Shown here piece after piece: positions 9,623 through 27,800 of a DNA stretch of 64,000 bases. Each line of letters starts with the position of its first letter. The first letter of the stretch is position 1. Under the pieces are notes generated by a model. It worked only from the letters and a program-made list of their open reading frames with translations. It was not told the DNA's origin and ran no database searches. A program made the position numbers and the translations under genes. The DNA is from Catellatospora vulcania (lineage in GTDB: Bacteria > Actinomycetota > Actinomycetes > Mycobacteriales > Micromonosporaceae): positions 124,001 through 188,000 of the forward strand of contig NZ_WARX01000007.1 in the NCBI RefSeq assembly GCF_009720385.1. The letters are read 5' to 3'.

Positions 9623-9818
9623 CGGACTTTTGTCGATCTATCTAAAAGTTCGAACATTTGCAGTAGAAGATATGGACACGGTGTGGGAAAGCTCGTAACG
9701 TGTGCGACACCCAGCCGAGTCCGGCCTGATCAAGGTCGATCGGCCCGGTGCGTCATCGCCCCGGTGGCCGCCGGCGCACCTGCGATGGCGTCTCGATCCT
9801 GATGAATCGGAGGCCGTC
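9623..9818. other. intergenic region before the first transporter
   Basis: An AT-rich stretch with the palindrome GTTCGAAC (9648-9655) precedes the substrate-binding-protein gene. No convincing -35/-10 pair could be assigned. It probably carries the promoter of the 9.8-12.9 kb operon. Confidence 0.3.
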
Positions 9819-10859: not shown

Positions 10860-10910
10860 CGCGCTGTCCTACCGGTGGCATCTTTTGCATGATCGGACAG
10901 AAGTCAGGGT

Positions 10911-10925
10911 GGTTTCGGCGAAACC
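10911..10925. promoter_or_regulatory. perfect 15-bp palindrome in the gap between SBP and permeases
   Basis: GGTTTCGGCGAAACC has 7-bp arms around one base. It lies 52 nt after the SBP stop and about 150 nt before the permease start. It may be an operator for a second promoter, or a small stem that lowers permease expression relative to the SBP. Confidence 0.4.
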
Positions 10926-11076
10926 TCTGGACGTCATCGATGCGAGCCCATAACCTCACGACGACTCACCGGCGTGATCGGCGCACGCCCTGTTGGTACT
11001 CGTACTGCAGGAAGAGAGCACCGATCCATGCGCCTGTCCACCGCCCCTGCCGGCGTCTCATCCGGGGGAGCCGGCA

Positions 11077-12045
11077 GTGCCCGTCACTGAGCAGCCCGCC
11101 GTCCGGTTCTGGACCAAGCCGCTGCCTCTGCCGCACCGCAGACCCCGGCGCAGCCTCCTGCACCGGGAGGGCGTCGCCGGCTACCTGCTGCTCACCCCGT
11201 GGTTGACCGGGCTCGCCGCGATCACCGTCCTGCCGGTCCTCTACTCCCTGGCCCTGAGCTTCACCGACTACAACGTCATCACCGGCGAGCTCGACTGGAT
11301 CGGCCTGGCCAACTACGAGCGGATGTTCACCGCCGACCCCCGGTACTGGCGTGCAGTCCAGGTCACGGTCGTGTTCGTCGCCGTGTCCGTGCCCCTGAAA
11401 CTGATCATCGCGATGGCGGTCGCCGCGCTGCTCAACGGCCGGCGGCGCGGCGCGGGCACGCTGCGGGCGCTGGTCTACCTGCCGTCCCTGCTCGGCGTCA
11501 GCGTGGCACTGGCCATCACCTGGCGCACCATGTTCGACACCGGCGGCGCGGTCAACCAGGTGCTCGGCGTCTTCGGCGTGCCGGACCGGTCCTGGGCCAC
11601 CGAGCCGGACACGGCGCTGTTCACGCTCGTCCTGCTCGCCGCCTGGCAGTTCGGCGGACCCATGGTGATCTACCTGGCCGCCATGGGGCAGATCCCCGCC
11701 GACTACGCCGAGTCGGCCCGCCTCGACGGCGCGAGCCGGTGGCGGATCCTGCGCAGCGTCACCCTGCCCGCGCTCTCCCCGGTCATCCTGCTCACCGTGG
11801 TCATGGAGACGATCGCGGCGTTCCAGGGCTTCACCGCCGCCTTCGTGTTCGGCGACGGCGGCGGCGGCCCCGGCGACGCGACCCTGACATACACGCTGTA
11901 CCTGTACCTGCGCGGGTTCGCCGGGCTGGAGATGGGCTATGCCTCGGCGATGGCCTGGGTGTTCCTGGTCGCTGTGGGAGCCCTCACCGGGCTCATCTTC
12001 TGGACCAGCCGCTGGTGGGTCCACTACCCGGGAGGCCGACCGTGA
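11077..12045 (+). CDS. ABC sugar permease, MalF-like (CUT1)
   Basis: 322 residues, about six membrane segments from AGYLLLTPWLTGLAAI onward. The EAA loop is visible as YAESARLDGASRWRILRSVTLP (about 210-232), which contacts the ATPase. GTG 11077 is chosen because GGGGGAG is 8 nt upstream; the longer frame lacks a site. The downstream permease overlaps by 4 nt (GTGA). No ATPase gene accompanies it, which is common in actinomycetes using a shared MsiK-type ATPase. Confidence 0.88.
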   Translation: MPVTEQPAVRFWTKPLPLPHRRPRRSLLHREGVAGYLLLTPWLTGLAAITVLPVLYSLALSFTDYNVITGELDWIGLANYERMFTADPRYWRAVQVTVVFVAVSVPLKLIIAMAVAALLNGRRRGAGTLRALVYLPSLLGVSVALAITWRTMFDTGGAVNQVLGVFGVPDRSWATEPDTALFTLVLLAAWQFGGPMVIYLAAMGQIPADYAESARLDGASRWRILRSVTLPALSPVILLTVVMETIAAFQGFTAAFVFGDGGGGPGDATLTYTLYLYLRGFAGLEMGYASAMAWVFLVAVGALTGLIFWTSRWWVHYPGGRP

Positions 12046-12932
12046 GCGTGCCCGCTGTCGCCCCGCCGCGCACCGGCCGACTCGCCCGTGCCGCGGCCAC
12101 CATCGCCACGGTCGCCGTGGTGCTGGTCCTGGGCTACCCGCTGCTGTGGATCCTGGCCTCGTCGCTGCGGGCGGCGGGCGAGACGGCGACCGGCCTGAGC
12201 CTGTGGCCGCAGGAGTTCACCTGGTCGAACTACACCGCCGGCTGGTCCGGGAGCAACGGGGTCGGCTTCGGCAGGTTCTTCCTCAACAGCACCGTCGTGG
12301 CCGTCGGCGCGGTGGTCGGCAACGTCGTCACCTGCCTGCTGGCCGCGTTCGCCTTCGCCAGGCTGCGGTTCCCGCTGCGCCGCTTCTGGTATGCGGTCGT
12401 CATCGGCACGCTCCTGCTGCCGCAGCACGTCCTCATGGTCCCGCAGTACATGCTCTTCCGGGAACTCGGCTGGCTGAACACCCCGCTGCCGCTGATCGTC
12501 CCGAAACTGCTCGCCACCGACTCGTTCTTCATCTTCCTGATCGTCCAGTTCCTGCGGTCGCTGCCGGAGAACTACGACGAGTACGCCCGCACCGACGGCG
12601 CCAGCCCGCTGCAACTCTTCCGCCACGTGATCCTGCCGCTGAGCCGCCCGGCGATCACCGCCACCGCGATCCTGACGTTCATCTGGACCTGGAACGACTT
12701 CTTCCCGCAACTGGTCTACCTGCCGCTGGTGGAGGACTCCACGGCGCCCTCCGGGCTGCACCAGTACGCGATCGCGGGCGGGCTCAGCGCCCCGGGGCCG
12801 ATGTTCGCGATGAGCGTGCTGTCCCTGCTGCCCGTGCTGCTGTTCTTCGTCGCCTTCCAGCGGCTGCTCACCACGTCGACCACGACCGGCCGGATGGCGG
12901 CCCACCTGCCGCGTCCGCGCGGACGCCGGTGA
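12042..12932 (+). CDS. ABC sugar permease, MalG-like (CUT1)
   Basis: 296 residues with about six membrane helices. The EAA motif is seen as YDEYARTDGASPLQLFRHVILPLSRPA (about 182-208), preceded by the MalG-typical FIFLIVQFLRSLPE. It pairs with the upstream MalF-like permease, from which it is offset by a GTGA overlap, and is followed by a strong terminator. Confidence 0.88.
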   Translation: MSVPAVAPPRTGRLARAAATIATVAVVLVLGYPLLWILASSLRAAGETATGLSLWPQEFTWSNYTAGWSGSNGVGFGRFFLNSTVVAVGAVVGNVVTCLLAAFAFARLRFPLRRFWYAVVIGTLLLPQHVLMVPQYMLFRELGWLNTPLPLIVPKLLATDSFFIFLIVQFLRSLPENYDEYARTDGASPLQLFRHVILPLSRPAITATAILTFIWTWNDFFPQLVYLPLVEDSTAPSGLHQYAIAGGLSAPGPMFAMSVLSLLPVLLFFVAFQRLLTTSTTTGRMAAHLPRPRGRR

Positions 12933-12944
12933 CGGCGGCGTAGT

Positions 12945-12989: not shown

Positions 12990-14270
12990 TCACGCACCCG
13001 TGCCGGCGTGGAACCGGTGGACCGCGCCGGCGGTGCGGGCCTGCTCGGCGGCCCAGACCACGCGGTGGCTGGCCAGGCTCGCGGCCGCGTCGGAGTGCAG
13101 CGCGGACGCGTCGCCGCTCGCCACGGCCTTGAGGAAGGCGTCCATGATGCCCTCGTCGCCGCCGCCGTGGCCGTCGCCGGCGGTGCCGCCGGCCAGGGTG
13201 CCGGTGTCGACGGTGTGCTGCTCACCGGTGCGGAAGTCGGTGACGTGCAGCAGCCGGCCGTCGCCGTCGACGTAGCCGTGGGTGCCGAACAGCCGGGTGC
13301 GCCGGTGCTCCATGGGCGTGAACGCGGTCATGGTGAATGTGCAGGTCGCGCCGTCGGGGAACTCCATCGCCACGACCTGGTGGTCGACGACGTTGTTGTC
13401 GCTGCCGTAGACGCAGCGCCCGTACGGGCCGGTGCGCAGCGCGGCGTCGATGCCGGCCTCGGTGTGGTCGGTGGTGACCGCGGACAGCGGCCAGAACTCG
13501 CGGGCCGGGTCGCCCAGGCAGGAGCGGTACAGCCGGGGCGCGGAGTAGGGGCAGGTCTGTTCGAGGGGGCAGTCCAGGCAGCGGTCGGCGGCCTCGGCCG
13601 GGCGCTGCTCGGACCGGAAGTGGGCGAGCCCGCCGAACGAGCTGATCCGGCTGGGCGCCGCGCCGATCAGGTAGAGCAGCCAGTCGATGTCGTGGCAGGA
13701 CTTGGTGAGCAGCAGCGGGGCGGAGGTCTCGGCGTTGTTCCAGTGGCCGCGGACGAACGAGTGCGCGAAGTGCCACCAGCCGATCGGCTCCAGGTGCTGG
13801 ACGTTGACCAGCTTGCCGATCGCGCCGCTGTCGAGCAGCCCTTTCAGGGCCCGGGTGTAGGGCGTGTAGCGCAGCACGTGGCAGACGGCGAGCATGACCC
13901 CGGCCGCGTCGACGGCGGCGGCGATGCGCAGCGCGTCGGGCTCCGTGGTGGCCATCGGCTTTTCCAGGAGTATGTGATAACCCAGTCCGGCGAAGGCCAC
14001 GGCCGCGTCGGCGTGCATGCGGTCCTGGGTGGCGATCACCGCGGCGTCGCCGAGCCGCCCGGCGGCGGCGAGCTCGGCCCAGTCGGTGAACACCTGGTCG
14101 GCCGGCACGTCGAACTCGGCGGCGAAGGCCGCGCGCCGGTCGGGGTCGGGTTCGGCGACGGCCACCACGCGGGCCGCCCCCGTGGCGGCCGCGCGGCGGG
14201 CGTATCCGATGCCGCGCAGTCCGGCACCTGCCACGACCAGCCGCACCCCGTCTACAGTCATCTCAGCCAT
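12990..14270 (-). CDS. Gfo/Idh/MocA-family oxidoreductase
   Basis: 426 residues. The N-terminal Rossmann motif VVAGAGLRGIGYARRA is followed by the EKP motif (ILLEKPMATT, about 97-106) and the substrate domain with SCHDIDWLLYLIG. A cysteine cluster CLDCPLEQTCPYSA (about 233-246) is typical of one subgroup. Enzymes of this family oxidise or epimerise sugars with NAD(P). GH109 alpha-N-acetylgalactosaminidases also have this fold, so a hydrolase is a less likely alternative. ATG 14261, three codons in, is as well placed to the AGGGG. Divergent from the ROK repressor. Confidence 0.85.
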   Translation of the reverse strand: MAEMTVDGVRLVVAGAGLRGIGYARRAAATGAARVVAVAEPDPDRRAAFAAEFDVPADQVFTDWAELAAAGRLGDAAVIATQDRMHADAAVAFAGLGYHILLEKPMATTEPDALRIAAAVDAAGVMLAVCHVLRYTPYTRALKGLLDSGAIGKLVNVQHLEPIGWWHFAHSFVRGHWNNAETSAPLLLTKSCHDIDWLLYLIGAAPSRISSFGGLAHFRSEQRPAEAADRCLDCPLEQTCPYSAPRLYRSCLGDPAREFWPLSAVTTDHTEAGIDAALRTGPYGRCVYGSDNNVVDHQVVAMEFPDGATCTFTMTAFTPMEHRRTRLFGTHGYVDGDGRLLHVTDFRTGEQHTVDTGTLAGGTAGDGHGGGDEGIMDAFLKAVASGDASALHSDAAASLASHRVVWAAEQARTAGAVHRFHAGTGA

Positions 14271-14293
14271 CCCCTGGAGGAGTTACTTTTGAA

Positions 14294-14312
14294 GGTCTCC
14301 ATAATTAGTAAC
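14294..14312. promoter_or_regulatory. candidate ROK operator, copy 1
   Basis: GGTCTCCATAATTAGTAAC lies between the divergent dehydrogenase and ROK genes. The core CTCCAT plus an AT-rich pentamer recurs at 15560-15578, before the SBP gene that the ROK protein would control. Confidence 0.5.
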
Positions 14313-14344
14313 ATGGCAGCGCGGTGTGCAAAAGGGGGCCGGTG

Positions 14345-15511
14345 GTGACCGAACAGCTAGCAGGCGGGGATCTCTCGCGGTTGCGGCAGCTCAACGCGCT
14401 CGCGGTGGTGCACGTGCTACGCGGCCGCCCGGCGCTGACACTGACCGAGCTGTCCCGCGACACCGGCCTGTCCCGGCCCTCGACCGAGGATGTGGTGCTG
14501 CAGCTGCAGCACCAGGGCTGGTTGGAGGAGGTGCAGCCCGCGTCCGGCGGGATGGGCCGCCCGGCCCGGCGCTACCGGTTCCGCTCCGACGCGGGCTGGG
14601 TGCTCGGCATCGACATCGGGGGCCACACCATCCGGGTGCTGGCCGCCGACCTGGACGGCGAGGTCAGGCACACGGTGCGCACGCCGGTGGCGATCACCGC
14701 GGGCCGGGCCGAGCGGCTCGCCGCGGTCGACGCCGCGGTCGCCGAATGCCTGGCCGCGGCCGGCCTGACCGGCGCGGACATCTGGGCGGCCACGGTCGGC
14801 ACGAGCGGCCTGGTCGACGCGGCGGGCCGGGTCGTGCTGTCGGTGGCGTTCCCGGAGTGGACCGGCGTGCACCTCGCCCAGCATGTGGGGCGCCTGGTCG
14901 GCGGCACGGTGCTGGTGGAGAACGACAGCCGGCTGGCCGCGCTGGCCGAGACCTGGCGGGGCGTGGCCCGCTACGCCCAGCACGTGGTGTACCTGCTGGC
15001 GGGCCTGCGCACCGGCACCGGCCTGATCATCGACGGCCGGCTGCACCGCGGCTTCGCGCAGGCAGCGGGCGAGATCGGGGCGCTGCCCGAGCTGGGCTGG
15101 ATCCGCGCGCAGGAGCACCTGCGCTCGTGGACCGGCGCGCCCGCCGGCACCGACCCCGACGACCTGGCCGGCTACGTGTTCGCCAGTGCCCGCGAGGGCG
15201 ACCGCAAGGCGGTGGCCGTGGTGCGCCGCTACGCCAAGGAACTCGCGCTGGGCGCGTCCGCGCTGGTCCTGGCACTGGACCCGCAGTTGGTGGTGCTCGG
15301 CGGCGGCTTCTCCCGCTCCGCGGACGTGCTGCTCGACCCGCTGCGCCGGGAGATCGAGAAGCGTTGCGTACGCATCCCGGAGATCGTCACCTCGACGCTC
15401 GGCGACGAGGCGGTGGCGCTCGGCGCGGTGAAACTCTCGCTGGAACATCTGCAGGAGCATCTGTTCGACGTGCGCACCGGGTTGGCTGCACCCGTCCGAC
15501 CTGCACGTTGA
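14345..15511 (+). CDS. ROK-family transcriptional repressor
   Basis: 388 residues. The N-terminal winged helix (LTLTELSRDTGLSRPSTEDVVLQLQHQGWLEE, about 32-64) is followed by the ROK ATPase-like fold with WVLGIDIGGHTIRVLAADL and LVENDSRLAAL. The zinc-binding cysteine cluster of ROK kinases is absent, as in pure repressors. GTG 14345 is chosen for its spacing to AAAGGGGG; GTG 14342 and 14324 are alternatives. It is likely to bind an incoming sugar and to control the dehydrogenase and the downstream import/hydrolase operon. Confidence 0.85.
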   Translation: MTEQLAGGDLSRLRQLNALAVVHVLRGRPALTLTELSRDTGLSRPSTEDVVLQLQHQGWLEEVQPASGGMGRPARRYRFRSDAGWVLGIDIGGHTIRVLAADLDGEVRHTVRTPVAITAGRAERLAAVDAAVAECLAAAGLTGADIWAATVGTSGLVDAAGRVVLSVAFPEWTGVHLAQHVGRLVGGTVLVENDSRLAALAETWRGVARYAQHVVYLLAGLRTGTGLIIDGRLHRGFAQAAGEIGALPELGWIRAQEHLRSWTGAPAGTDPDDLAGYVFASAREGDRKAVAVVRRYAKELALGASALVLALDPQLVVLGGGFSRSADVLLDPLRREIEKRCVRIPEIVTSTLGDEAVALGAVKLSLEHLQEHLFDVRTGLAAPVRPAR

Positions 15512-15543: not shown

Positions 15544-15578
15544 TTGACAAACTTATTCAGGACTCCATTAATACTGGG
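15544..15578 (+). promoter_or_regulatory. promoter and operator copy 2 of the hydrolase operon
   Basis: A perfect TTGACA (15544-15549) is followed by TTAATAC around 15568-15574 as the -10. The candidate ROK operator GGACTCCATTAATACTGGG (15560-15578) covers the -10 region, consistent with repression. Confidence 0.55.
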
Positions 15579-15636
15579 CTAGCACATGAGACCCGGTGAA
15601 TCCCCGATGACGTTCTTGCGAAGAAGGGTTCCTCAG

Positions 15637-16899
15637 ATGTGGAAAGCAGTGCGGGTAGGCGCGGCCGCGGTTCTGGCCGCCGCCCTCGCCGTGTCCGCCG
15701 CGGGTTGCGGCGGCGAAGAGCCTGCCGCCAGTGACGACAAGGTCACCCTGTCCTACGCGGTGTGGGACAAGAACCAGGTCCCGGTGATGGAGGAGCTGGC
15801 CGCCGCCTTCACCAAGGACCACCCGAACATCACGATCAACGTCCAGCTCACGCCGTGGGCCGACTACTGGACCAAGCTGCGGGCGGCCGTCACCGGCGGC
15901 GCGGCGCCGGACGTGTTCTGGATGAACGGCCCCAACATCCAGCTCTACGCCGACAACGGCGTGATCATGCCGCTGTCCGACAAGGTCGACCAGGCCAAGC
16001 TGGACCTGAACGTCTACCCGAAGGCGCTGGTCGACCTCTACACCTTCGAGGGCAAGGTCTACGGGCTGCCGAAGGACTTCGACACCGTCGGCGTCTGGTA
16101 CAACAAGGAACTCTTCGACGCCGCCGGGGTGAAGTACCCCGCCGACGGCTGGACCTGGGCCGACTTCAAGGCCGCCGCGGCGAAGCTGAGCAACCCGGCC
16201 AAGGGCGTCTACGCGGTCGGCGCCAACCTCGCCGGCCAGGAATACTTCTACAACACCATCTACCAGGCCGGCGGCAACGTGATCTCCGCCGACGGCAAGA
16301 AGTCCGGCTACGACGACCCGGCCACCATCGAGGGTCTGCGCTTCTGGACCGACCTCATCAAGAACAAGCAGTCGCCGGACCTCAAGACCATGACCGACAC
16401 CGCCCCGCTGAACCTGTTCGAGTCGGGCAAGCTCGCCATGTACTGGGGCGGCTCCTGGAACGTCGCCGAGTTCGGCAAGAACGAGTACACCAAGACCCGG
16501 GTCGACGCGGCCCCGCTGCCCACCGGCGTCAAGCAGGCCACCATCATCCACGGCCTGGCCAACGTGGTGTCGGCGAAGACGAAGGCCCCGGCGCAGGCCT
16601 GGGAGTTCGTGAAGTTCCTCGGCTCCAAGCCGGCCGCGGAGATCCTCGGCAGGAAGGGCCCCATCCCGGCGCACACCGGCACCCAGGACGCCTGGCTGAC
16701 CGCCAACGCCCAGTTCAAGGGCAAGGTCTTCCTCGACGCGGTGAGCTACGCGGTGCCCTACCCGGTGTCGCGCAACACCGCCGCCTGGAACGACGAGGAA
16801 TTCAAGCAGCTCACCAAGGCCTACAGCGGCGAGGTCGAGGTCGACGCGGCCGCCAAGGAACTCGCCGCGCAGATGAACGCCCTGCTGGCGAAGGAGTAG
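15637..16899 (+). CDS. sugar-binding lipoprotein of ABC importer (SBP_bac_1)
   Basis: 420 residues. A lipoprotein signal (MWKAVRVGAAAVLAAALAV...) ends in a VSAAGC lipobox at Cys 23. The mature part is a CUT1 solute-binding fold: VTLSYAVWDKNQVPVMEEL, DVFWMNGPNIQLYADNG, MYWGGSWNVAEF. ATG 15637 gives a proper signal peptide and has AAGAAGG upstream; ATG 15586 and 15607 would add residues before it. First gene of a five-gene operon with its permeases and two secreted hydrolases. Confidence 0.9.
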   Translation: MWKAVRVGAAAVLAAALAVSAAGCGGEEPAASDDKVTLSYAVWDKNQVPVMEELAAAFTKDHPNITINVQLTPWADYWTKLRAAVTGGAAPDVFWMNGPNIQLYADNGVIMPLSDKVDQAKLDLNVYPKALVDLYTFEGKVYGLPKDFDTVGVWYNKELFDAAGVKYPADGWTWADFKAAAAKLSNPAKGVYAVGANLAGQEYFYNTIYQAGGNVISADGKKSGYDDPATIEGLRFWTDLIKNKQSPDLKTMTDTAPLNLFESGKLAMYWGGSWNVAEFGKNEYTKTRVDAAPLPTGVKQATIIHGLANVVSAKTKAPAQAWEFVKFLGSKPAAEILGRKGPIPAHTGTQDAWLTANAQFKGKVFLDAVSYAVPYPVSRNTAAWNDEEFKQLTKAYSGEVEVDAAAKELAAQMNALLAKE

Positions 16900-16908
16900 G
16901 ACCGCAAG

Positions 16909-17886
16909 ATGACGATGACCGTGACGGGTGCCGCGGACGACGTCCGCACCGCGGTGCCCGCCCCGGTGCCCGCCCGGCGGCGACGTCGCTGGCGCCACCG
17001 GGGAGCCGAAGCCGCCTGGGCGTACCTGCTCATCGCGCCGACCGGGCTGGGCCTGGCCGTGTTCTACCTGTGGCCGGTGCTGCAGACCGGCTACTTCTCC
17101 TTCACCGAATGGGGGCCGTTCGGCGGGCACGAGTGGGTCGGGCTGGACAACTACCGCACCCTGGCCGCCGACGACGAGGTGCTGACCGCGCTGCGCAACA
17201 CGGTCGCGTACACCCTGCTCGGCCTGCTCGGCATTCCGCTCGCGGTGCTGTTCGCGGCGCTGCTCAACCGGCCCCGGCTGCGTGGGGTGTCGGTGTACCG
17301 GGCGCTGTTCTTCCTGCCCGTGGTCACCATGCCGGTGGCCGTGGCGATGGTCTGGCGCTGGCTCTACAACGGCGACTACGGTCTGATCAACTACCTGCTG
17401 TCGCTGGCGGGCGTGGACGGACCGCACTGGATCGCCGACCCCGCGACCGCGCTGTACGCCATGGTCGCCGTCGGGATCTGGACCAGCCTCGGCTACAACA
17501 TCGTCATCTTCCTGGCCGGCATGCAGTCGATCCCGCGCGAGTACTACGAGGCCGCCTCGATCGACGGGGCCGGCGCGCTGGCGCAGTTCCGCCGGATCAC
17601 GCTGCCGCTGCTGTCGCCGTCGCTGTTCTTCGTGTCGGTGCTGTCGGTGATCGGCTCGCTGCAGCTGTTCGACCTGGTGTACGTGATGGGCGGCAGCGGC
17701 CAGGCGGCCCGCGCCAACCCGGCCTTCCCGCGCATCCAGACCGTCGTGCACCTGTTCTACGACAAGGCGTTCTACACCAACGACCGCGGCTACGCCGCCG
17801 CGATCGTGATGGCGCTGCTGGTGCTCATCGTCGTGCTCACGGCGATCCAGTTCCGGCTGCAGAAACGGTGGGTGCACTATGGCTGA
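16909..17886 (+). CDS. ABC sugar permease, MalF-like (CUT1)
   Basis: 325 residues with six membrane segments beginning at AWAYLLIAPTGLGLAVFYL. The EAA loop is YYEAASIDGAGALAQFRRITLPLLSP (about 214-239). An ATG six bases downstream is an alternative start. The C terminus overlaps the next permease by 8 nt. It forms the membrane channel for the binding protein encoded just upstream. Confidence 0.9.
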   Translation: MTMTVTGAADDVRTAVPAPVPARRRRRWRHRGAEAAWAYLLIAPTGLGLAVFYLWPVLQTGYFSFTEWGPFGGHEWVGLDNYRTLAADDEVLTALRNTVAYTLLGLLGIPLAVLFAALLNRPRLRGVSVYRALFFLPVVTMPVAVAMVWRWLYNGDYGLINYLLSLAGVDGPHWIADPATALYAMVAVGIWTSLGYNIVIFLAGMQSIPREYYEAASIDGAGALAQFRRITLPLLSPSLFFVSVLSVIGSLQLFDLVYVMGGSGQAARANPAFPRIQTVVHLFYDKAFYTNDRGYAAAIVMALLVLIVVLTAIQFRLQKRWVHYG

Positions 17887-18712
17887 GCCACCCCGTCCGC
17901 CCCGCGGCGGCCGCACGGCCACCCACGTCACGCTGCTGATCGGCGCGGCGGTGATGGTCGGCCCGTTCCTGTGGCAGTTCCTGACCTCGCTGAAGACCCT
18001 CACCAACGCCACCCGGGTGCCGCCCACGTTCCTCCCCGACTGGCGCTGGTCCAACTACGGCGACGTGTTCGAGCTGCTGCCCTTCGGCGACCAGTTCCTC
18101 AACACCGTGCTGATGACCGCCGCCCGCACCGCCGGGCAGCTGCTGTTCTGCTCCATGGCCGCGTACGCCTTCGCGCGGCTGCGCTTCCCCGGCCGCGGCC
18201 TGCTGTTCGGCGTGTTCCTGTCGGTGCTGATGGTGCCGCCGCCGCTGTTCGTCATCCCGCAGTACGAGATCATGGCCGACCTGGGCTGGCTCAACAGCCT
18301 GACCGCGCTCATCGTGCCCGGCCTGTTCTCCGCGTTCGGCGTGTTCCTGCTCCGGCAGTTCTTCCTCGGCCTGCCCAAGGAACTCGACGAGGCGGCCCGC
18401 CTCGACGGCGCCGGCCCGCTGCGCATCTACTGGTCGGTCATGCTGCCGCTGGCCAGACCCGGCCTGCTCGCGCTGGGCATCCTGACCGTGCTGTGGTCCT
18501 GGAACGACCTGTTCTGGCCGCTGATCGTCAACACCGACCCGGAGCAGATGACCCTGTCGGCGGGCCTGGCCTCGCTGCAGGGCCAGTTCCAGACCGACTA
18601 TCCGGTGCTCATGGCCGGTTCCCTGCTCGCCTCGCTGCCCGTCATCGTGCTGTTCACCGTGATGCAGCGCCACTTCATCCAAGGCATCGCCTTCAGCGGC
18701 AACAAGGGCTGA
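17879..18712 (+). CDS. ABC sugar permease, MalG-like (CUT1)
   Basis: 277 residues. Six membrane segments are predicted by eye; the EAA loop is LDEAARLDGAGPLRIYWSVMLPLARP (about 178-203). It is preceded by FLLRQFFLGLPKE, typical of MalG. The gene overlaps its MalF-like partner by 8 nt. As with the other two importers here, no ATPase gene is present. Confidence 0.9.
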   Translation: MAEPPRPPRGGRTATHVTLLIGAAVMVGPFLWQFLTSLKTLTNATRVPPTFLPDWRWSNYGDVFELLPFGDQFLNTVLMTAARTAGQLLFCSMAAYAFARLRFPGRGLLFGVFLSVLMVPPPLFVIPQYEIMADLGWLNSLTALIVPGLFSAFGVFLLRQFFLGLPKELDEAARLDGAGPLRIYWSVMLPLARPGLLALGILTVLWSWNDLFWPLIVNTDPEQMTLSAGLASLQGQFQTDYPVLMAGSLLASLPVIVLFTVMQRHFIQGIAFSGNKG

Positions 18713-18740
18713 ACCCATACCCCAGATCGGAGACACGACC

Positions 18741-20588
18741 ATGCTGCACCGGCATGGCCGCGGACGCCTGCACCTCCGGGCGGCGGCCGTACTCGTCACA
18801 CTGCTCACCGTCACCTCCGCCGCGACACCCGCGCAGGCCACCGGCACCCCGTCGGACGGCATCGCGCAGCAGCTCGCGGTGCCCGCGTACTTCTACCCGG
18901 GCGGCGACGGCAGCGCCCTCTGGCAGCAGCTGAACACCCCGGGTGTCGGAATCGCGGTGGCGAACCCGTTCTCCGGACCCGGCAAGACCCGCGACCCGAA
19001 CTACGCCGCCGCCATCACCGCCGCCAAGTCCGCGGGGGTACGCGTGCTCGGCTACGTCGCCACCGGCTACCTCGGCACCACCGGCCGCGCGACCAGGCTC
19101 AACGAGACCACCCCGGCCGCCTGGGCGGCGCAGGTCCAGCAGGACGTGTCCACCTGGTACCGCCTCTACGGCGCGGACGGGCTCGCCGGGATCTTCTTCG
19201 ACGAGGTGCAGAACGTCTGCGGCCCGCAGGACACCTACGTCGACACCTACCGGATGCTCGACCGGCACACCAAGCGGTCCCACCCCGGCGCGTTCACCGT
19301 GATCAACCCTGGGATCGACACCGAGCCCTGCTACGCCGACGCCGCCGACGTGATCCTCACCTTCGAGGGCGCCTACGAGACCTACCTCGGCTGGCAGCCG
19401 CCGTCCTGGCACCGCGCGCTCGACCCGCGCAAGCTGTGGCACCTGGTGCACGCCACCGACACCACGGCGCAGCTCGCGAACGCGGTAACGCTGAGCAAGC
19501 AGCGCAACGCCGGCTACCTGTACGTCACCCCGGACGTGCTGGCCAACCCGTGGGACTCGCTGCCGCCGCAGGACTACTGGACGCAGCAGCTGGCCGCCAC
19601 GTCGGCGGGCGGCGGCGACACGGCCGCGCCGCGCGTGTTCGGCACACCGTTCCCGGTCCGGACTCACTCGACCGAAGCCGTCGTCGCGTGGCTGCCCGCT
19701 GCCGACACACACGGCCGGGTCACCGGCTACGACGTGCAGGTCGACGGGGTGCGGGCGGCGGGCTCGGCGAGTGCCTTGCCGGTGGCGACGCTGTACGGCC
19801 TCGACCCGGGCCGGGCCTACCGGATCACGGTCACCGCGCACGACGCGGCGGGCAACGTGTCCGCGCCCGGCCGGGCCCTGACCCTGACCACGCCGCCCGG
19901 TGACGGGCAGCCGCCCGCGGCCCCGGCCGGGCTGCACGCGACCGAGACCAAGGTCGCCAGCGTGCGGCTGGCCTGGACGGCGTCGGCCGAGTCCGATCTC
20001 GTGGGCTACGACGTCGAGGTCGACGGGCAGCCGCTGCTGTCGCTGCCGTCGTGGCTGGTCACGCAGGGGGCCACGGTCAGCGTGCCGGTGAGCGGGCTGG
20101 AGCCGGGCACGGCTTACACCTTCACGGCGTACACCCGCGATCGCAGTGGGAACCGCTCGGCCGCCGCCGGGCCGCTCACCGTCAGCACGACGGCGCCCTC
20201 GGGCGACCCGATCACGGACGCCGCCGGCGTCATCGGCACCGCCGAGGCCACCTACCAGGCGCAGTACAACCTGCCGTTCGACTTCCACCACCTGTTCATC
20301 GACGTCGACAACGACGCGAGCACCGGGTTCGCCACCGCGGGCATCGGTGCGGACCTGCTCATCGAGAACGCCTGGTGCTACCGCCACGCCGGCACCGGCT
20401 GGAGCTGGGCTCCGGTCGACGGGCCGAGCCCGCTGATCTCCAGCGACGACGACCGCTACGTCTGGCGCGTGCCTGTCGCCGTGCTCCAGGACGTGCTCGG
20501 CGGCCAGCCGCCCGGCCCGCACCGGGTGGTGTTCCACGGCTCCGGCAGCTCGCCGGAGACCTACACCGCAGTGATCACCGTCAGCTGA
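18741..20588 (+). CDS. secreted spherulin-4/GH135-like hydrolase with FN3 domains
   Basis: 615 residues. Signal peptide about 1-34 (ends AQA). The catalytic domain (about 40-290) has the spherulin-4/Sph3 pattern: VPAYFYPGGDG, GIAVANPFSGPG, a DPNY segment, RVLGYVATGYLG and GIFFDEVQ, whose Asp or Glu is a likely catalytic residue. Sph3 (GH135) cleaves galactosaminogalactan of Aspergillus. Two FN3-like domains follow (about 296-485), then a beta-rich module (about 490-615) also found in the next protein. GGAGA precedes the ATG; 28 nt follow the permease, so it is in the operon. Confidence 0.82.
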   Translation: MLHRHGRGRLHLRAAAVLVTLLTVTSAATPAQATGTPSDGIAQQLAVPAYFYPGGDGSALWQQLNTPGVGIAVANPFSGPGKTRDPNYAAAITAAKSAGVRVLGYVATGYLGTTGRATRLNETTPAAWAAQVQQDVSTWYRLYGADGLAGIFFDEVQNVCGPQDTYVDTYRMLDRHTKRSHPGAFTVINPGIDTEPCYADAADVILTFEGAYETYLGWQPPSWHRALDPRKLWHLVHATDTTAQLANAVTLSKQRNAGYLYVTPDVLANPWDSLPPQDYWTQQLAATSAGGGDTAAPRVFGTPFPVRTHSTEAVVAWLPAADTHGRVTGYDVQVDGVRAAGSASALPVATLYGLDPGRAYRITVTAHDAAGNVSAPGRALTLTTPPGDGQPPAAPAGLHATETKVASVRLAWTASAESDLVGYDVEVDGQPLLSLPSWLVTQGATVSVPVSGLEPGTAYTFTAYTRDRSGNRSAAAGPLTVSTTAPSGDPITDAAGVIGTAEATYQAQYNLPFDFHHLFIDVDNDASTGFATAGIGADLLIENAWCYRHAGTGWSWAPVDGPSPLISSDDDRYVWRVPVAVLQDVLGGQPPGPHRVVFHGSGSSPETYTAVITVS

Positions 20589-20613
20589 TCCACTTTCAAC
20601 GAGGCGAGGTGCC

Positions 20614-23600
20614 ATGAACGACAGAGCTCATCCGCACCGCACCACTCGATCCGCACGCCGCGTTCGGGCCAGGCTGCTGGCCGGGGCGCTGGCCGCCGCC
20701 ACCGCGCTGACCGCCGGGATCGTCGCCCTCACGGCGGCCCCGGCGGCCGCGGCCGGCTTCGAGATCGGCCGGACCCCGTTCTACGGCAAGGTCCCCACGC
20801 TCGGCGCGAACAGCCGCACCGCGTTCTGGTACGGCGCGCTCGACCAGGCGAAAGTCAACCAGCTCAAGGCGTACGACCTGGTGGTCCTCGAACCGACGCT
20901 GCGCGTGCTGAACGTGACCGCCGACCACTTCTACTTCGAGTCGGTCACCTCAGCCCAGGTCCAGGAGATCAAGCGCGGCGTCGACGGGGTGCTGGGCAGC
21001 GCCGACGACGCGATCGTGCTCGGCTACCTGTCGGTCGGTGAGATGCTGCCGACGATCATCCCCGGGCACAGCGGGCACATGACCGTCCAGAAGGGCATCG
21101 ACCTGGGCCTGCTCCCGGCGGGTTACGGCGGCCCGTCGGGTCCGCTGCACGGCCCGAACCCGTGGAACTACAGCTCCTCCGGCTCCTACCTCAACGTCGA
21201 GGGCGGCGCGACCCCGGACGGCACCTACGCCGACGGCTACGCCAACTACGCCGGCACCTCCATCGGCGCGAACCACTCGTCCTGGGGCAACCGCCTGACC
21301 TGGCGCAACAACGGCGTCATGCCCTGGTATCTCGACCAGCAGGGCACCTGGGTCAACGACAGCCGCTACCTGTACGGCGGCTACTGGAAGGACGGCGACG
21401 GCACCGTCGACGTCAACCCGACCTACGGCGGCGGCTACATCAACGGCGGTGACCCGGCCTGGCAGAAGTTCGTCACGTACCAGGTCGACAAGATCGTGCA
21501 CGACGGCGACTACGACGGGGTCTTCCTCGACACCGTGGACACCCCCGACCCGGTCGGCGGCGCGGGGCCGGGCATCTCGTGGGGGCCGCGCGGCAACTTC
21601 GGCTTCACCGCGGGCGGCATGGTCGACCTGGTGGAGAAGATCAAGGCGGTCGACCCGAGCAAGGTCGTCGCGTCCAACCGGGGCTACTGGTACTTCAACC
21701 CCGACGAGGGCACCTCGCAGTTCGCCGCCCGCTACCGGCACGCGATCAACATCTTCGTCACCGAGTCCTGGTACTACAACACGTACATCCCGGGCTTCTA
21801 CGACACCAGCCCCGGTTTCGAGGCCAACTGGAACACCAACTCCGCCTCGCCGACCTACCGAAGTCGCGACAACTTCGGCGGCTTCTGGAAGGAGTACGTC
21901 AACGCCCAGGCCAACCAGGCCGACGGCTTCAACGTCGCGATCATCGACTTCCGGGTGCCCGCCGCGAGCACCCAGAAGTGGATGAACGAGGTCGTCGTCA
22001 ACTCGGGCTACCTCGGCTACGACGTGTCGGGCGCGAACCACTTCAACTCCGCGGTGTACGACGACGCCAAGAACTGGCTCGACGCCCAGGGGCTGGCCTC
22101 GCCCAGCCAGACCGGGGCACATCCGACGGACCTCTACGGCGGCTTCGTGGCCGACGGATCGGTGGGGGAGTGGTCCGCGGAGCTCCCGATCTTCAATGAT
22201 CCCGCGGGCGCGAACGCCAAGGGCATCACCAAGGTGTACGTGAAGTTCGTGGGCAACCGGTTCTTCATGATGGTCGAGGCGAAGCAGACGATCAGTCTCG
22301 CCCAGGAGATGATCTATTTCGACTACGACAAGGACGGGCCGGCCGGGTGGCAGCCGTCCTGGCCCACCTCGCCCGACTCGCGCCTCTACCTGGAGAACCT
22401 GAACCAGGCGTACCTGCTGCCGCACGCCGGGGCGGGCCAGGGCGACGTGTTCAAGTTCAGCAGCCCGAGCGCGCCGACCAACCGCGGCTGGCCGGTGCGG
22501 GTCGTGCAGTCCGGCACCCGGGCCGAGTTCGAGTTCGACCGCGACTACGTGTTCCCGGCCTCGATGGCGGGCACCGAGGTGTGGACGTGGCTGCGGGTGG
22601 CCAACTTCGGCGGGTCCTCGGTGAAGTTCACCGTGCCCGGCGGCGGCGCCCCGCCGTCGCCATCCCCGACGCCATCCAGCTCGCCGCCCCCGGCGCAGCC
22701 GCCGGTGATCTCGAACGTCCAGTACGCGAACGTGACCAGCACCGGTGCGACGGTCACGTGGACCACGGATGTGGCGTCGTCGTCGGTCGTCGAGTACGGC
22801 ACATCCACGGCCTACGGCTCCACGGCGACGGGTGCGAGCAACGTGACGAGCCACTCGGTGACGTTGTCGGGGTTGTCGCCGGGCACGGCATACCAGTTCC
22901 GGGTGCGGTCGGCGTCAGCCGGTGGCACCACGAACAGCCCCAACGGCACCTTCACCACAGGCTCGTCCGGCGGTTCCTATCCGGCGATCACCGTCGACGG
23001 CGCGATCGGGGACTGGGGGAGCATCACTGCCGTGATGACCGGCAGCACCACCGTGCAGTCGGTGTCGATCGCCAACAACGCTGCCAACCTCTACCTGCTC
23101 ACCCGCGGCACGGGGCTCAACGTGTTCGGGCAGTTCTTCCTGAACACCGACAACAACCCCGCCACCGGGTACAACGCCACCGGCTGGAGCAACCCGTCCG
23201 GCGCGGACTACATGCTGGAGAACGGCAACCTGTACCGCCATGCCGGGGGCGGCTGGGCCTGGACGTCGCTGGGCGCGGTCACCTTCGTCCGCAACGACAC
23301 CGCGGTCGAGGCGGCGATCCCGCTGTCCACGCTGAGCCTGAGCCCCGGCGCGCAGCTGCGGGCGGGCTACCTGAAGAACAGCTCCGCCACCGACCGGCTC
23401 CCTGCCGCGAGCGGCACGTTCCCGGTGGTAACCCTGCTCAACGGCTCCGGCGGCGGAGGCGGCGCACCTGTGATCTCGAACGTCCAGTACGCCAACGTCA
23501 CGAGCACCGGCGCGACGGTCACGTGGACCACGGACGTGGCGTCGTCGTCGGTCGTCGAGTACGGGACTTCCACGGCCTACGGCTCCACGGCGACGGGTGC

Positions 23601-24207
23601 GAGCAACGTGACCAGTCATTCGGTGACGTTGTCGGGGCTGTCGGCGGGGACGGCGTACCAGTTCCGGGCGCGTTCGGTGTCGGCCGGTGGCACCACGAAC
23701 AGCCCCAACGGCACTTTCACCACCGGTTCGTCCGGCGGCTCCTATCCGGCGATCACCATCGACGGCTCGGCCGGGGACTGGGCCGGCGTGAACCCGGTGC
23801 TGTCCGGCGGCACCGGAGTGCAGTCGGTGTCGGTGACCAACAACGGCACGACGCTCTACCTGTGCGTCAAGGGCACCGGCCTGAACGTCCTCGGGCAGTT
23901 CTTCCTCAACACCGACAACAACACCGGCACCGGCTACAACGCCGCAGGCTGGACCAACCCGTCCGGCGGCGACTACATGCTGGAGAACGCCAACCTGTAC
24001 GACCACGGCGGCAGCGGCTGGGCCTGGACCCCGCTCGGCGCGATGACGTTCGTCCGCAACGACACCGTCATCGAAGCGGCCGTGCCGCTGGCGAGCGTGG
24101 GCCTGGCCGCGGGTGCGCAGTTCCGCGTCGGGTACATCAAGAACAACACCACCGACCGGCTTCCGGCGGCGAGCGGCACGTTCCCCGTAGTGACACTGCT
24201 GAACTGA
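20614..24207 (+). CDS. large secreted GH114-like glycoside hydrolase, multidomain
   Basis: 1197 residues. Signal peptide about 1-48. The catalytic barrel (about 50-500) resembles the endo-alpha-1,4-polygalactosaminidase/TM1410 superfamily: VLGYLSVGEM (about 137), DGVFLDTVDTPD (about 300) and VTESWYYN (about 385) are strand-end acidic motifs expected in the active site. A beta-sandwich (about 505-675, VADGSVGEWSAELPIFND) resembles CBM9/DOMON modules. After a Pro/Ser linker come FN3, module, Gly linker, FN3, module. The last two pairs are internal duplicates, and the module matches the C terminus of the preceding GH135-like protein. Last gene of the operon. Confidence 0.8.
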   Translation: MNDRAHPHRTTRSARRVRARLLAGALAAATALTAGIVALTAAPAAAAGFEIGRTPFYGKVPTLGANSRTAFWYGALDQAKVNQLKAYDLVVLEPTLRVLNVTADHFYFESVTSAQVQEIKRGVDGVLGSADDAIVLGYLSVGEMLPTIIPGHSGHMTVQKGIDLGLLPAGYGGPSGPLHGPNPWNYSSSGSYLNVEGGATPDGTYADGYANYAGTSIGANHSSWGNRLTWRNNGVMPWYLDQQGTWVNDSRYLYGGYWKDGDGTVDVNPTYGGGYINGGDPAWQKFVTYQVDKIVHDGDYDGVFLDTVDTPDPVGGAGPGISWGPRGNFGFTAGGMVDLVEKIKAVDPSKVVASNRGYWYFNPDEGTSQFAARYRHAINIFVTESWYYNTYIPGFYDTSPGFEANWNTNSASPTYRSRDNFGGFWKEYVNAQANQADGFNVAIIDFRVPAASTQKWMNEVVVNSGYLGYDVSGANHFNSAVYDDAKNWLDAQGLASPSQTGAHPTDLYGGFVADGSVGEWSAELPIFNDPAGANAKGITKVYVKFVGNRFFMMVEAKQTISLAQEMIYFDYDKDGPAGWQPSWPTSPDSRLYLENLNQAYLLPHAGAGQGDVFKFSSPSAPTNRGWPVRVVQSGTRAEFEFDRDYVFPASMAGTEVWTWLRVANFGGSSVKFTVPGGGAPPSPSPTPSSSPPPAQPPVISNVQYANVTSTGATVTWTTDVASSSVVEYGTSTAYGSTATGASNVTSHSVTLSGLSPGTAYQFRVRSASAGGTTNSPNGTFTTGSSGGSYPAITVDGAIGDWGSITAVMTGSTTVQSVSIANNAANLYLLTRGTGLNVFGQFFLNTDNNPATGYNATGWSNPSGADYMLENGNLYRHAGGGWAWTSLGAVTFVRNDTAVEAAIPLSTLSLSPGAQLRAGYLKNSSATDRLPAASGTFPVVTLLNGSGGGGGAPVISNVQYANVTSTGATVTWTTDVASSSVVEYGTSTAYGSTATGASNVTSHSVTLSGLSAGTAYQFRARSVSAGGTTNSPNGTFTTGSSGGSYPAITIDGSAGDWAGVNPVLSGGTGVQSVSVTNNGTTLYLCVKGTGLNVLGQFFLNTDNNTGTGYNAAGWTNPSGGDYMLENANLYDHGGSGWAWTPLGAMTFVRNDTVIEAAVPLASVGLAAGAQFRVGYIKNNTTDRLPAASGTFPVVTLLN
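22705..23757 (+). repeat. two 288-bp near-identical direct repeats within the gene
   Basis: Bases 22705-22992 and 23470-23757 have the same length and are nearly identical by eye. They encode the FN3 domain beginning VISNVQYANVTSTGATV and the start of the following module. The near-absence of synonymous change indicates a recent duplication or ongoing gene conversion. Confidence 0.85.
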
Positions 24208-24245: not shown

Positions 24246-24829
24246 ACCGCTCTCGGTGACCGTGGTGTCGATACGCCCGGCGAAGGCGGCGGATTACCGT
24301 CGCGATGGCTATTCGGGCCTACGGGAATGCCGGGTCGTCGGGTGCCGCGTGAGCGATCACTATTCATTGATCGTTATAGCGAGCCGCATCCTAAATCAAG
24401 ACTGCGTTGTGTCGCAGTCCGAAAAGTTACTTGAGTGAATCGACGATTCACTTGCTCGCCGGCGGGCCTTCCGGACGAATGTCGACACCGCCGCCGCCCT
24501 TCGGTGCGGGTTCGGTATTCCGCGGGCTTGAACTGCTAAAACCGTCCGTGCGGAGGGGATCGGCGACCATGGACCCGGTCAACTCGGTCCGAAGATGAGT
24601 CGGGTTGGCACCAGTGGCCATTTCTGCCTCAGCCGCATGTCGCGGGTGATCACTCGGGCCCGGAGAAAGGCCTGCTGACGCGATTCTCATCCGCAGTCGT
24701 GAATGGATCTCGCGAATTCTCGATCGGGTGGACCGCTGTCCTCGCCGAGCGTCACGCGTTAACGTCACTCATCGTCCGGCGCCTATAGGGCAAACCGCAG
24801 GACGCTGTCCCCGAATGGTGAGGTGTGCC
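24246..24829. promoter_or_regulatory. regulatory region upstream of the conflict operon
   Basis: This stretch without a gene has an AT-richer centre. It contains CGATCA (24354-24359) and TGATCG (24368-24373) as an inverted repeat with 8-nt spacing, and a perfect 19-bp palindrome AGTGAATCGACGATTCACT at 24434-24452. A weak promoter-like pair, TTGATC (24368) and TAAATC (24392), lies between them. The palindrome is a likely operator for an unlinked regulator. Confidence 0.45.
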
Positions 24830-27800
24830 GTGGGAGTTGACGCAGCCTGGGAATCGCAGACCTGGGCCTGGCTGACGAGCCTGGGGCGATTTCTCCACTG
24901 CGACCTGCCGGATCGTTCGCAGCCGGACGCATTCGACGCGGCCTTCGCGATCCTCGCCGCGAAGAGCGGCGGGCTGGGCAGCGAGACGTCGGCACACCTG
25001 CTGATGCAGGGCCTCTACTACCATGTCCGCCGGCGCACGGTCGTCACCGGCGCTGACGCGCTGTGCCAGCTGGCGGCCAGCGTCGGGCCGGACGTGACCG
25101 GCGGCACCGCCGATGCTCTCGCGGACCTGCTGGTCTCCGCCGCGATGGAAGTGGCGGTGGTCGACACCCTGGCCGGGCCGATCGGCTACCTCGCCACTCA
25201 ACTGCCTGATTCACCCGCGGTCCTGGCGGCCCGCACCGCCTGCCCGGCGGGCGAGGCGGCCCCGCATTCCGCCGACTCCGACAGCACCGACCCGCACGCG
25301 TCGGGCCCGTCGAGCCGGACGTCGAGCACGCTGACCGAGGAGGACGAGCGGACGTTCTGGGACTCCGTCTACCCGGAGCTGTTCTTCGAGAACGACAGTG
25401 CGCGCCCGCTCGGCTGGGCGCTGCTGAACCGCGGCCTGGCACGGGCGGTCAAGCAGCGCTCCACGCAGTCGGTCGCCGCCGCCCTGCTCCAGATACTCGC
25501 CGACAAGGCGGCGACCAGCGGGTCCCTTCCGAGGTCCGAGCACATGCTGGTGCCGGCGTGCGTGGCGGCGGTCCAGTCCGAGCAGGCCAACGTCGTCGCC
25601 GAGGCGATCGGCATCGTGGTCCGCCAGGCCACGCCGTCGAGCGCGCAGGTGAGCTCGCTCGTCACCGCCACCGACCGGTATACGTCGGTCGTCCGCCAGT
25701 TGCTGCTGCGCGCGCTGACGGGCGTCCTGGATACGGCCTCGGCCCGTCACGACCGCGCTCGTGCGGCGGGATGTGTGGAGCCCGCGGCGACGCTCGCCGA
25801 GTACTTGACCCAAGCCCAGGCCAAGAGCCTGGCGGACCGGTTCGACGTGTTCAAGCTGGAATCCAGCCTCGCCCTCGACGAGTTGCGGCAGCGGGCCGAC
25901 CCGTCGAAGCGCAGCGATCTGAGCGGGCTGTCCATCGACGACCGGACCGCCCTGCTCAACGCGAGCCAGTCGTTCCAGGCCCAGGTCGCGATGTCGGTGT
26001 GCCAACGCAATCGCGGGCTGCTGCTGGAGCAGGCCCGGACCTGGCTCGCGCAGCAGCTGGGCAGCAGCGTCTCCACCTACCGTGCGCCGGCGGCGCCGCA
26101 CCCCGCCACCCTGCTGCTCGGGCGCAACAAACTCCACCGGAACGAGATCGCCGCGGCGATCGACGGCAGCCCGCCGGCGATCGACCGGTGCCGGCAGGCG
26201 TTGGAGCAGTTCCTGGTCCGTGGCCGGAGCGCCGTGGCGGAAGAATGGGACGCCTACCTCGATACACACTCGGGGCGCCTACCTGATGCCGCGGACAAGT
26301 GGCGGCGGACGACCCAGCCGAGCCCCGAGGTCTGCTGGAATCTGGCCGTCTTCGACACCGGCCGCAAGTTCGCCGAGGCGGGCGCGTACAAGCACGTCGA
26401 GCAGGGGCTGAAGTCCTGGCGGGCCGACACCGACATGGTGCTGCAAGGCATCTGGCTCGCTTTGCAGGCGTCCGAGGACAGCGCGGAGGCCGCGCACGCC
26501 GCCCGTTTCTTCACCACCTGGGCGTGCGAGGTGCCCGAGCCGCGGGTGCTCCTGGCCGCGCTGGCCATGGCGGACGGGGACTCGCAGGAAGGGTTCGCGC
26601 TGGCGGAGCGGGCCCTGCGGCAGTGGGGGCAGCTCGCAGATCCACCAGCGCTGCAGGTCGGGCCCGGTCGCGCCTCCGTCGCGGCCATGATCGACGAGGT
26701 GCGCAAGGAGTCCCGTTACACCCAGCGCTGGCAGCGCTGCATCCTGGCCGGCGCGGCGACCCGCGTGTCGCCGGGTTCCCGGCTGACGGTGCTGGTGGCG
26801 CTGGCCGATCTGACCGAGAAGGACCCGGAGCAGTCGATCGTCGCGAGCGAGACGTGGCACCGCGTCGTGGAGCACGGGCGGGAACGACTCGACGAGCTTT
26901 CGTCCGACATGAAGCAGCTGGAACGCCGGATGGAACGGAGCACCGAGACCGAGTCACGCCGCAGCGCGGTGAAGGGCCAGATGCACCACGCCAAGAAGGC
27001 GCTGAGCGACGCGAAGCAACAGTTCCGCCCGATCGCGCAAGGCGCACTCCGGTTCGCCCAGCGGTGGCGGGACGAGCGGCTCGGCCGGGCAGTCACCGCT
27101 GTCACCAGTCACCACGGCATCAACCTGTCCAGCGAGCAGGAGAAGCTGCTCAAGAACCTGCTGCCCACGGTGCAGACTTCTCGGCCGGCCGAGATACGCC
27201 CAGAGATAGCGCAGCTCATCCCGCGGCTGACCGCGGCTACGGATCCGGCTTCGGTGGCGGCGCTGGCCAAGAGCGTCGAACCGGCCCTGGCGTACGTGGG
27301 CGCCGGTCTTCAGGTCCGTGAGCTCGTCCACCAGATGTTCGACGGCCTCGGGCGGCTGTCCCAGCGCGTGCAGCCGGATGAGGCGCGTGAACTGCTGGAC
27401 GGGGTCGGGCGCATCGCCAGCCAGCTGGAGTCGTCCGACACCGCCGAGGAGTCGCTTGCGGCGTTGCTGGGCGCGGTCCGCCGGGCCTGCGACTTCGCGG
27501 CGACCAACCTGGTCGACGCGCCACCGCCGGGGGCGTCGATTCCCGGCTACTGGGTCGGTCTGAGCCGTGAGTCGGACGTGCCGCAGGCGGTGTTGGAGGT
27601 CCGCGGCACCCAGGACGTGCATCTTCAGGACGTGACGCTGGCCGCAGGCCGCGAGGCCGTCCAGGTCGGCGATCTCGCTCCCGGTCAGGTGCTGACCGTT
27701 GCGGTGCCGGTCGCGACCGAGTGGCCGTCGGCCGGTGACACCGCGGGTATCGTCGTCAACCTCGGCTGGAGCTGGAACAACGTTACCGGCCGCAAGCGCA

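Follow-up and report, generated by a model that had tools for sequence, protein, structure and literature searches.

Biofilms of Aspergillus, Pseudomonas, Bacillus and streptococci are held together by galactosamine polymers. Enzymes that cut these polymers are studied as anti-biofilm agents and are so far known mostly from organisms that make the polymer. The Pel hydrolases PelA (GH166), B. cereus PelAH and SIR_1591 are found in or beside synthesis operons (PMC7112168, PMC12345266). Gram-positive pel loci include DUF4832 genes (PMC7112168), and GalNAc-rich Pel aggregates of S. intermedius are disrupted by the DUF4832 enzyme SIR_1591 and also by PelA and Sph3 (PMC12345266). The TM1410 family is now classified as GH191; Env-GH191 is active on Pel with a preference for GalN-rich stretches, whereas TmGH191 is inactive on oligomers of galactosaminogalactan (GAG), and Pel, for its part, contains no Gal (PMC12054363). 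Clusters for GAG-like synthesis in actinobacteria and fungi combine Uge/GalE, Gtb/PelF, Agd3, Sph3/Spherulin-4 and Ega3/GH114, and actinobacterial GAG-like operons with Spherulin-4 and GH114 genes are likely biosynthetic (PMC7229062). Utilization of GalN/GalNAc, in turn, is represented by genes of the AgaS, AgaK and NagA type. A literature search of limited scope returned no polymer-degrading, importer-linked GalN/GalNAc locus.

The window analyzed here, a 64,000-nucleotide stretch of Catellatospora vulcania DNA, contains a gene cluster that resembles these systems in part. On the (+) strand, and separated by small gaps or overlaps, lie genes for a ROK-family regulator with an N-terminal helix-turn-helix (14324..15511, true start possibly about 14345; PF00480 110.6 bits, HTH 31.1 bits), a 437 aa solute-binding lipoprotein of an ABC importer (15586..16899; PF01547 155.9 bits), ABC permease 1 of the MalF/UgpA type (16909..17886; PF00528), ABC permease 2 of the MalG/UgpE type (17879..18712; PF00528), a secreted 615 aa Spherulin-4/GH135-type enzyme (18741..20588; PF12138 7e-41, 5c5g Sph3 8e-10), and a secreted 1197 aa enzyme, denoted GHx, with a GH191/TM1410-like profile and motifs (20614..24207). 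A 425 aa Gfo/Idh/MocA oxidoreductase is encoded divergently (12990..14270, (-) strand; PF01408 8e-17) and is kept in the block across other genera. Every operon gene is confirmed by Pfam except that of GHx, which matches fn3-type modules only; signal peptides and a lipobox were seen by eye in the translated sequences. The first-pass annotation had proposed an importer–hydrolase operon with a ROK regulator and a sugar dehydrogenase next door. The genes are indeed present and co-directional, and both neighbors are Pfam-supported, but its starting point, 15637, is an internal ATG of the lipoprotein gene. With its solute-binding lipoprotein, two permeases, secreted hydrolases and a regulator accompanied by a repeated operator-like site, the cluster has the make-up of an ABC-type sugar utilization locus.

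Spherulin-4 is shared with the GAG-like synthesis clusters, and DUF4832 relatives of the Pel hydrolases replace or join Spherulin-4 (Sph4) and GHx in related operons. Conversely, synthase, epimerase and deacetylase are missing here, the second enzyme is not GH114, and the hydrolases are accompanied by an importer and a ROK regulator instead. Two further features of the flanking DNA were recorded. Upstream, an importer (9702-12943) has MalF/MalG-type permeases together with a lipoprotein that is RbsB-like (Peripla_BP_4), which is unusual; it was dropped as a part of the locus, being present among the genus loci only in G109, with most stretches ending before that point. Directly downstream (24728-29608), a 1626-aa ORF without a Pfam match is followed by proline-rich ORFs.

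We read the locus as a regulated system for the uptake and use of a foreign alpha-1,4-linked GalN/GalNAc exopolysaccharide, putatively of the Pel/galactosaminogalactan class, and assign this reading a probability of about 0.6. It draws on GH135, the GH191-like enzyme and DUF4832, each of which is a link of its own to GalN(Ac) polymers. In the proposed sequence of events, two secreted enzymes with CBM9-like modules, an N-acetylgalactosaminidase of the GH135 type and a galactosaminidase of the GH191-like type, would cut the polymer outside the cell, presumably in endo fashion. The lipoprotein and two permeases would import the resulting oligosaccharides, using an ATPase encoded elsewhere, and the Gfo/Idh protein may act on them inside the cell. 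The ROK protein would act as a repressor via two predicted operators, one over the importer promoter region, until released sugar derepresses the genes under its control.

The first enzyme matches the Spherulin-4 family far above the threshold (PF12138, 140.8 bits vs. a cut-off of 30.2), bearing out an earlier GH135-like assignment. Its catalytic domain (residues about 43-290), for which Sph3 structures are the nearest solved relatives, is followed by two fn3 domains and, at the C terminus, a CBM9-like module (about 487-615). The dyad D154/E209 aligns with Sph3 D166/E222 (numbered from a chain offset of 50 plus family knowledge), which we take to be the catalytic residues, and is invariant in 15 aligned bacterial relatives and Sph3. 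The adjacent E155 aligns with Sph3 E167 and is common to Sph3 and the closest importer-linked proteins, with Q, R or D found at this position in other bacterial Spherulin-4 copies. For Sph3, Asp196 is printed in PMC12054363; as the residue aligned with it here is non-acidic, we take this as a misprint for Asp166. Judged by sequence, the protein is a predicted GH135-type N-acetylgalactosaminidase; the activity that marks GH135 is of the retaining endo-alpha-1,4 kind. The family match, the dyad and E155 connect it to fungal Sph3 (GH135, PDB 5c5g) and bacterial Spherulin-4, whereas, unlike Sph3, it is bacterial, equipped with fn3 and CBM9-like modules, and encoded behind an ABC importer outside a polymer synthesis cluster.

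For the second enzyme, the proposed GH114-like identity was not upheld. Neither the 1197-aa protein nor its homologues match PF03537, for which the single match of the genome lies elsewhere; comparison with a profile of 21 bacterial GH114 sequences gave an hhalign probability of 2.9. GH114 (Ega3) was rejected, the protein being nearest to TM1410/GH191. Against TM1410-like actinobacterial proteins hhalign returned a probability of 97.2 (E 3e-11), with an aligned region of 88 columns surrounding the nucleophile. The TIGR01370 (TM1410) model gave 17.7 bits, far under its cut-off of 181.25, and matched 8 of the 17 homologues weakly. Moreover, the motifs YDLVVLEPT, GYLSVGEM, YDGVFLDTVD, SNRGYW and VTESW follow the same order as the TM1410-type motifs. 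The residues D306 and E384 are the same in all 17 homologues, which come from two phyla, and fit the expected motifs by eye; the profile alignment spans the Asp only, not E384. About 160 residues separate the SVGE Glu from the candidate catalytic Asp, vs. about 63 in a TM1410-like sequence, and the enlarged insertion may occupy the position of the clan's ligand-binding loop. The catalytic region extends from residue 48 to about 505, with the long insertion past the SVGE motif, and beta modules and fn3 domains follow. In GH191, the catalytic Asp and Glu lie at the ends of strands 4 and 6 of a (beta/alpha)8 barrel, which has a three-stranded insertion after strand 3. An AF2 model of GHx computed with 17 homologues (pLDDT 43.6) was too poor for geometry and displayed alternating strands and helices only; a PDB profile search with GHx gave no match. 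On these grounds GHx appears to be an unclassified GH191-like family with D306/E384 as candidate catalytic residues. It shares with GH191 (TM1410, Env-GH191; PMC12054363) the succession of SVGE, YDGxxLDxVD, NRG and a next-strand E, with a conserved Asp and Glu in these motifs as judged by eye, but differs in its sub-threshold score, in a stretch from the SVGE Glu to the Asp that is longer by about 100 residues, and in large C-terminal beta modules.

GHx is rare. It was found in this genome only in a sample of the phylum, and in 8 of 251 genomes of the family. Copies in Catellatospora coxensis, sichuanensis, bangladeshensis and paridis are 94-98% identical, and homologues at 63-86% identity occur in Nonomuraea, Paenibacillus and Cohnella. 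The copy of Paenibacillus sp. 1011MAR3C5 (L044:10001-11887) is 74-78% identical to Catellatospora GHx, compared to 63-70% for other Paenibacillus and Cohnella copies. This distribution suggests a transfer of GHx between phyla; no relatives were found in viral contigs.

A module of 145 residues occurs twice in GHx (copy 1, 22981..23415, AF2 pLDDT 93.5; copy 2, 23746..24177, 70% identical to copy 1; both (+) strand). Related modules are found at the C terminus of Sph4, at the N terminus of actinobacterial DUF4832 proteins and, in several copies, in Paenibacillus DUF4832 proteins. Structural alignment of the module model with the CBM9 structure 1i82 (VIA-align) gave Z 9.4 and an rmsd of 3.4 for 125 aligned residues, with Z 9.3 to 7nwn, Z 10.5 to the CBM74 region of Sas6, and unrelated entries at 6.5 or below. 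PF06452 (CBM9) matches 4 of the 54 module copies, with a best E of 1e-4. The module is modelled with a CBM9-like beta-sandwich fold, and its presence on all three catalytic types suggests that they may have a common target.

The block of Gfo/Idh, ROK regulator, solute-binding protein and two permeases recurs in other genera, where the enzymes encoded downstream vary. Sph4 and GHx follow the block in seven Catellatospora genomes (7 of the 11 of the genus), and all three enzyme types do so in Nonomuraea soli. GHx is joined by DUF4832 in G032, and Sph4 by DUF4832 in G024; Sph4 stands alone in G184, as does DUF4832 in G190, G196 and G232, and a broken Sph4 is present in G112. Counting Catellatospora once, at least one of the three enzyme types is encoded behind 9 of 17 blocks and none behind the remaining 8 (G244, G216, G192, G155, G006, G906, G717 and G749). 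A rough independence estimate places the association of enzymes and block far below chance, for loci that are related and with N. soli found through GHx. The gene arrangement is beyond chance, the block being kept in 7/11 genomes of the genus and also, with other hydrolases in their place, outside it. In Paenibacillus and Cohnella, the usual neighbors of GHx are a DUF4832 protein with an S-layer anchor, a different Gfo/Idh protein and a non-orthologous importer; this is the same set, assembled independently. The G112 locus (L106:10458-12419), with its hydrolase part decayed, retains a Spherulin-4 fragment, along with a PfkB gene and a ROK kinase that is shortened.

Beyond the hydrolases, the G032 operon encodes an SIS-type protein and a ROK kinase; the SIS start and the DUF4832 stop overlap. 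The SIS-type protein scores best with models of the GlmS, GlmD and AgaS family, and the kinase with glucokinase and ManNAc kinase models. By sequence they represent amino-sugar catabolic functions, an SIS deaminase and a ROK kinase, with no model cut-off reached that would fix the sugar; they link this relative to GalN/GalNAc utilization of the AgaS, AgaK, NagA type and support the galactosamine-polymer reading. Within the window itself, no amino-sugar kinase or deaminase adjoins the operon, and the Gfo/Idh protein is the sole in-cluster candidate for an intracellular sugar step. Its 51 phmmer matches among solved chains were all generic Gfo/Idh proteins, none named as a GH109 enzyme, and thus gave no sequence support for a GH109-type NAD-dependent alpha-N-acetylgalactosaminidase. 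The protein (12990-14270) also contains a Cys-rich motif, RCLDCPLEQTCPYSA, as a possible metal-binding site. Taken further, the system could be a dedicated catabolic one for galactosamine biofilm polymers, in which three sequence-unrelated hydrolase families, namely GH135, a new GH191-related one and DUF4832, with a common CBM9-like targeting module are exchanged across genera behind one regulator–importer core and Gfo/Idh carries out intracellular cleavage, a tentative proposal that we rate somewhat short of even odds.

Regulation by the ROK protein is suggested by a repeated sequence, ACTTWTNNAGGNNTCCATNAWTANT, of which two copies flank the ROK gene. Predicted operator 1, ACTTTTGAAGGTCTCCATAATTAGT (14285..14309), lies in the Gfo/Idh–ROK gap, and predicted operator 2, ACTTATTCAGGACTCCATTAATACT (15551..15575), before the importer genes and immediately 3' to a conserved TTGACA-like box. 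Other genera have related sequences at the two corresponding positions, and there too a TTGACA-like box directly precedes the second. A scan for sigma-70-type promoters yielded nothing at its threshold. Within the window there are two operator-like matches vs. none in shuffles, and across the 8.8 Mb genome, at up to three mismatches, one further operator-like site only (reversed control: 0). This third site, with three mismatches, is located between an importer and four DUF4832 genes, and the probability of a random site so near is about 0.001. The corresponding sister locus (L177:1200-17223, G000:C2) encodes a ROK paralogue 53% identical to that of the window, a GH36-type enzyme, a binding protein and two permeases, with the operator-like site and the four DUF4832 genes in tandem. 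As the operator scan was blind to DUF4832, this one site, mismatched at three positions, provides independent support. The postulated coupling of secreted enzymes, importer and ROK regulator is thus backed by synteny, by the common operator-like site and by the amino-sugar catabolic genes of one relative.

The hydrolases might instead remodel or release the organism's own exopolysaccharide, as Sph3, Ega3 and PelA do in biosynthesis, with the importer recycling fragments. The pairing of Spherulin-4 and GH114 genes in actinobacterial GAG-like biosynthetic operons (PMC7229062) would fit, and Micromonosporaceae clusters of the order GalE – Agd3-like – PelF – Spherulin-4 – GH114 were found here (L165, L178), in which Spherulin-4 is paired with a true GH114. 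PelF is also present in 3/11 genus genomes. However, a search at 1e-30 detected no PelF in this genome, and four genomes of the genus carry the operon but lack PelF. The operon itself contains no synthase (PelF/Gtb), deacetylase (Agd3/PelADA), glycosyltransferase or multi-spanning synthase gene. We consider an own polymer very improbable; from the absence of PelF and of synthesis genes in the operon, a foreign polymer is probably the better reading. As an observation in its own right, the L165/L178 clusters correspond, in bacteria, to the galactosaminogalactan cluster of fungi (outlined in PMC7229062). Elsewhere, a short GH114 gene adjoins a short Spherulin-4 gene beside rnc and fpg (L038:4717-5933, G000:C1:304716-305932), away from any synthase; the GH114 match is limited to the first 146 of 231 positions.

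Scavenging of a galactosamine exopolysaccharide is likely on this sequence evidence. The first-pass annotation had specified fungal galactosaminogalactan, and the uptake of a galactosamine polymer is supported by synteny and operator; the qualifier "fungal" is not, since Sph3, a DUF4832 enzyme and the characterized GH191 enzyme also act on Pel (PMC12345266, PMC12054363). By our analysis, at least two polymers are candidates, galactosaminogalactan being one of them. In the special case that galactosaminogalactan were the substrate, the bacterium would feed on or weaken hyphae. Sph3 (GH135) does come from a fungal GAG cluster, and an alpha-galactosidase-type enzyme such as the GH36 of the sister locus would suit Gal-containing GAG and not Gal-free Pel (PMC12054363), so this enzyme speaks for a polymer with Gal. 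What is known of GH191 and DUF4832 enzymes speaks for Pel: the one characterized active GH191 enzyme acts on Pel, TmGH191 is inactive on GAG oligomers (PMC12054363), and DUF4832 enzymes occur in bacterial Pel operons. Furthermore, the window operon contains no alpha-galactosidase, and the GalE–Agd3-like–PelF–Sph4–GH114 clusters of other Micromonosporaceae represent a bacterial source of such a polymer. A specifically fungal substrate is accordingly rather unlikely.

The importer points in another direction as well. The nearest solved chain to the solute-binding lipoprotein is 5f7v, Lmo0181 (E 2.8e-41), presumably a binder of the alpha-glucan cycloalternan. Together with the GH36-type enzyme of the sister locus, and with a more distant importer relative (G062, 56%) that precedes a 1206-aa secreted protein resembling GH31 by eye, this would be consistent with a different alpha-linked glycan, an alpha-galactan or alpha-glucan, to which the Spherulin-4 and GHx domains have drifted. 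Such drift appears unlikely to us, as the catalytic residues of the first enzyme and the candidate ones of GHx are kept, and the links of GH135, the GH191-like enzyme and DUF4832 to GalN(Ac), together with the SIS deaminase and ROK kinase of the relative, argue against it. Counting against the galactosamine-polymer reading that we prefer are the Lmo0181-like binder, the 8/17 blocks without any of the three enzyme types, the absence of an amino-sugar kinase or deaminase beside the window operon, the 88-column extent of the GHx match, the poor GHx model and the mismatched third operator.

If this reading is true, enzymes feeding an importer would show which soil organisms eat galactosamine polymers. 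It would also make new enzyme families, GHx and the importer-linked DUF4832 proteins, available for testing along with their binding modules, and the sugar-responsive regulator with its named predicted operator would offer a handle on the system.
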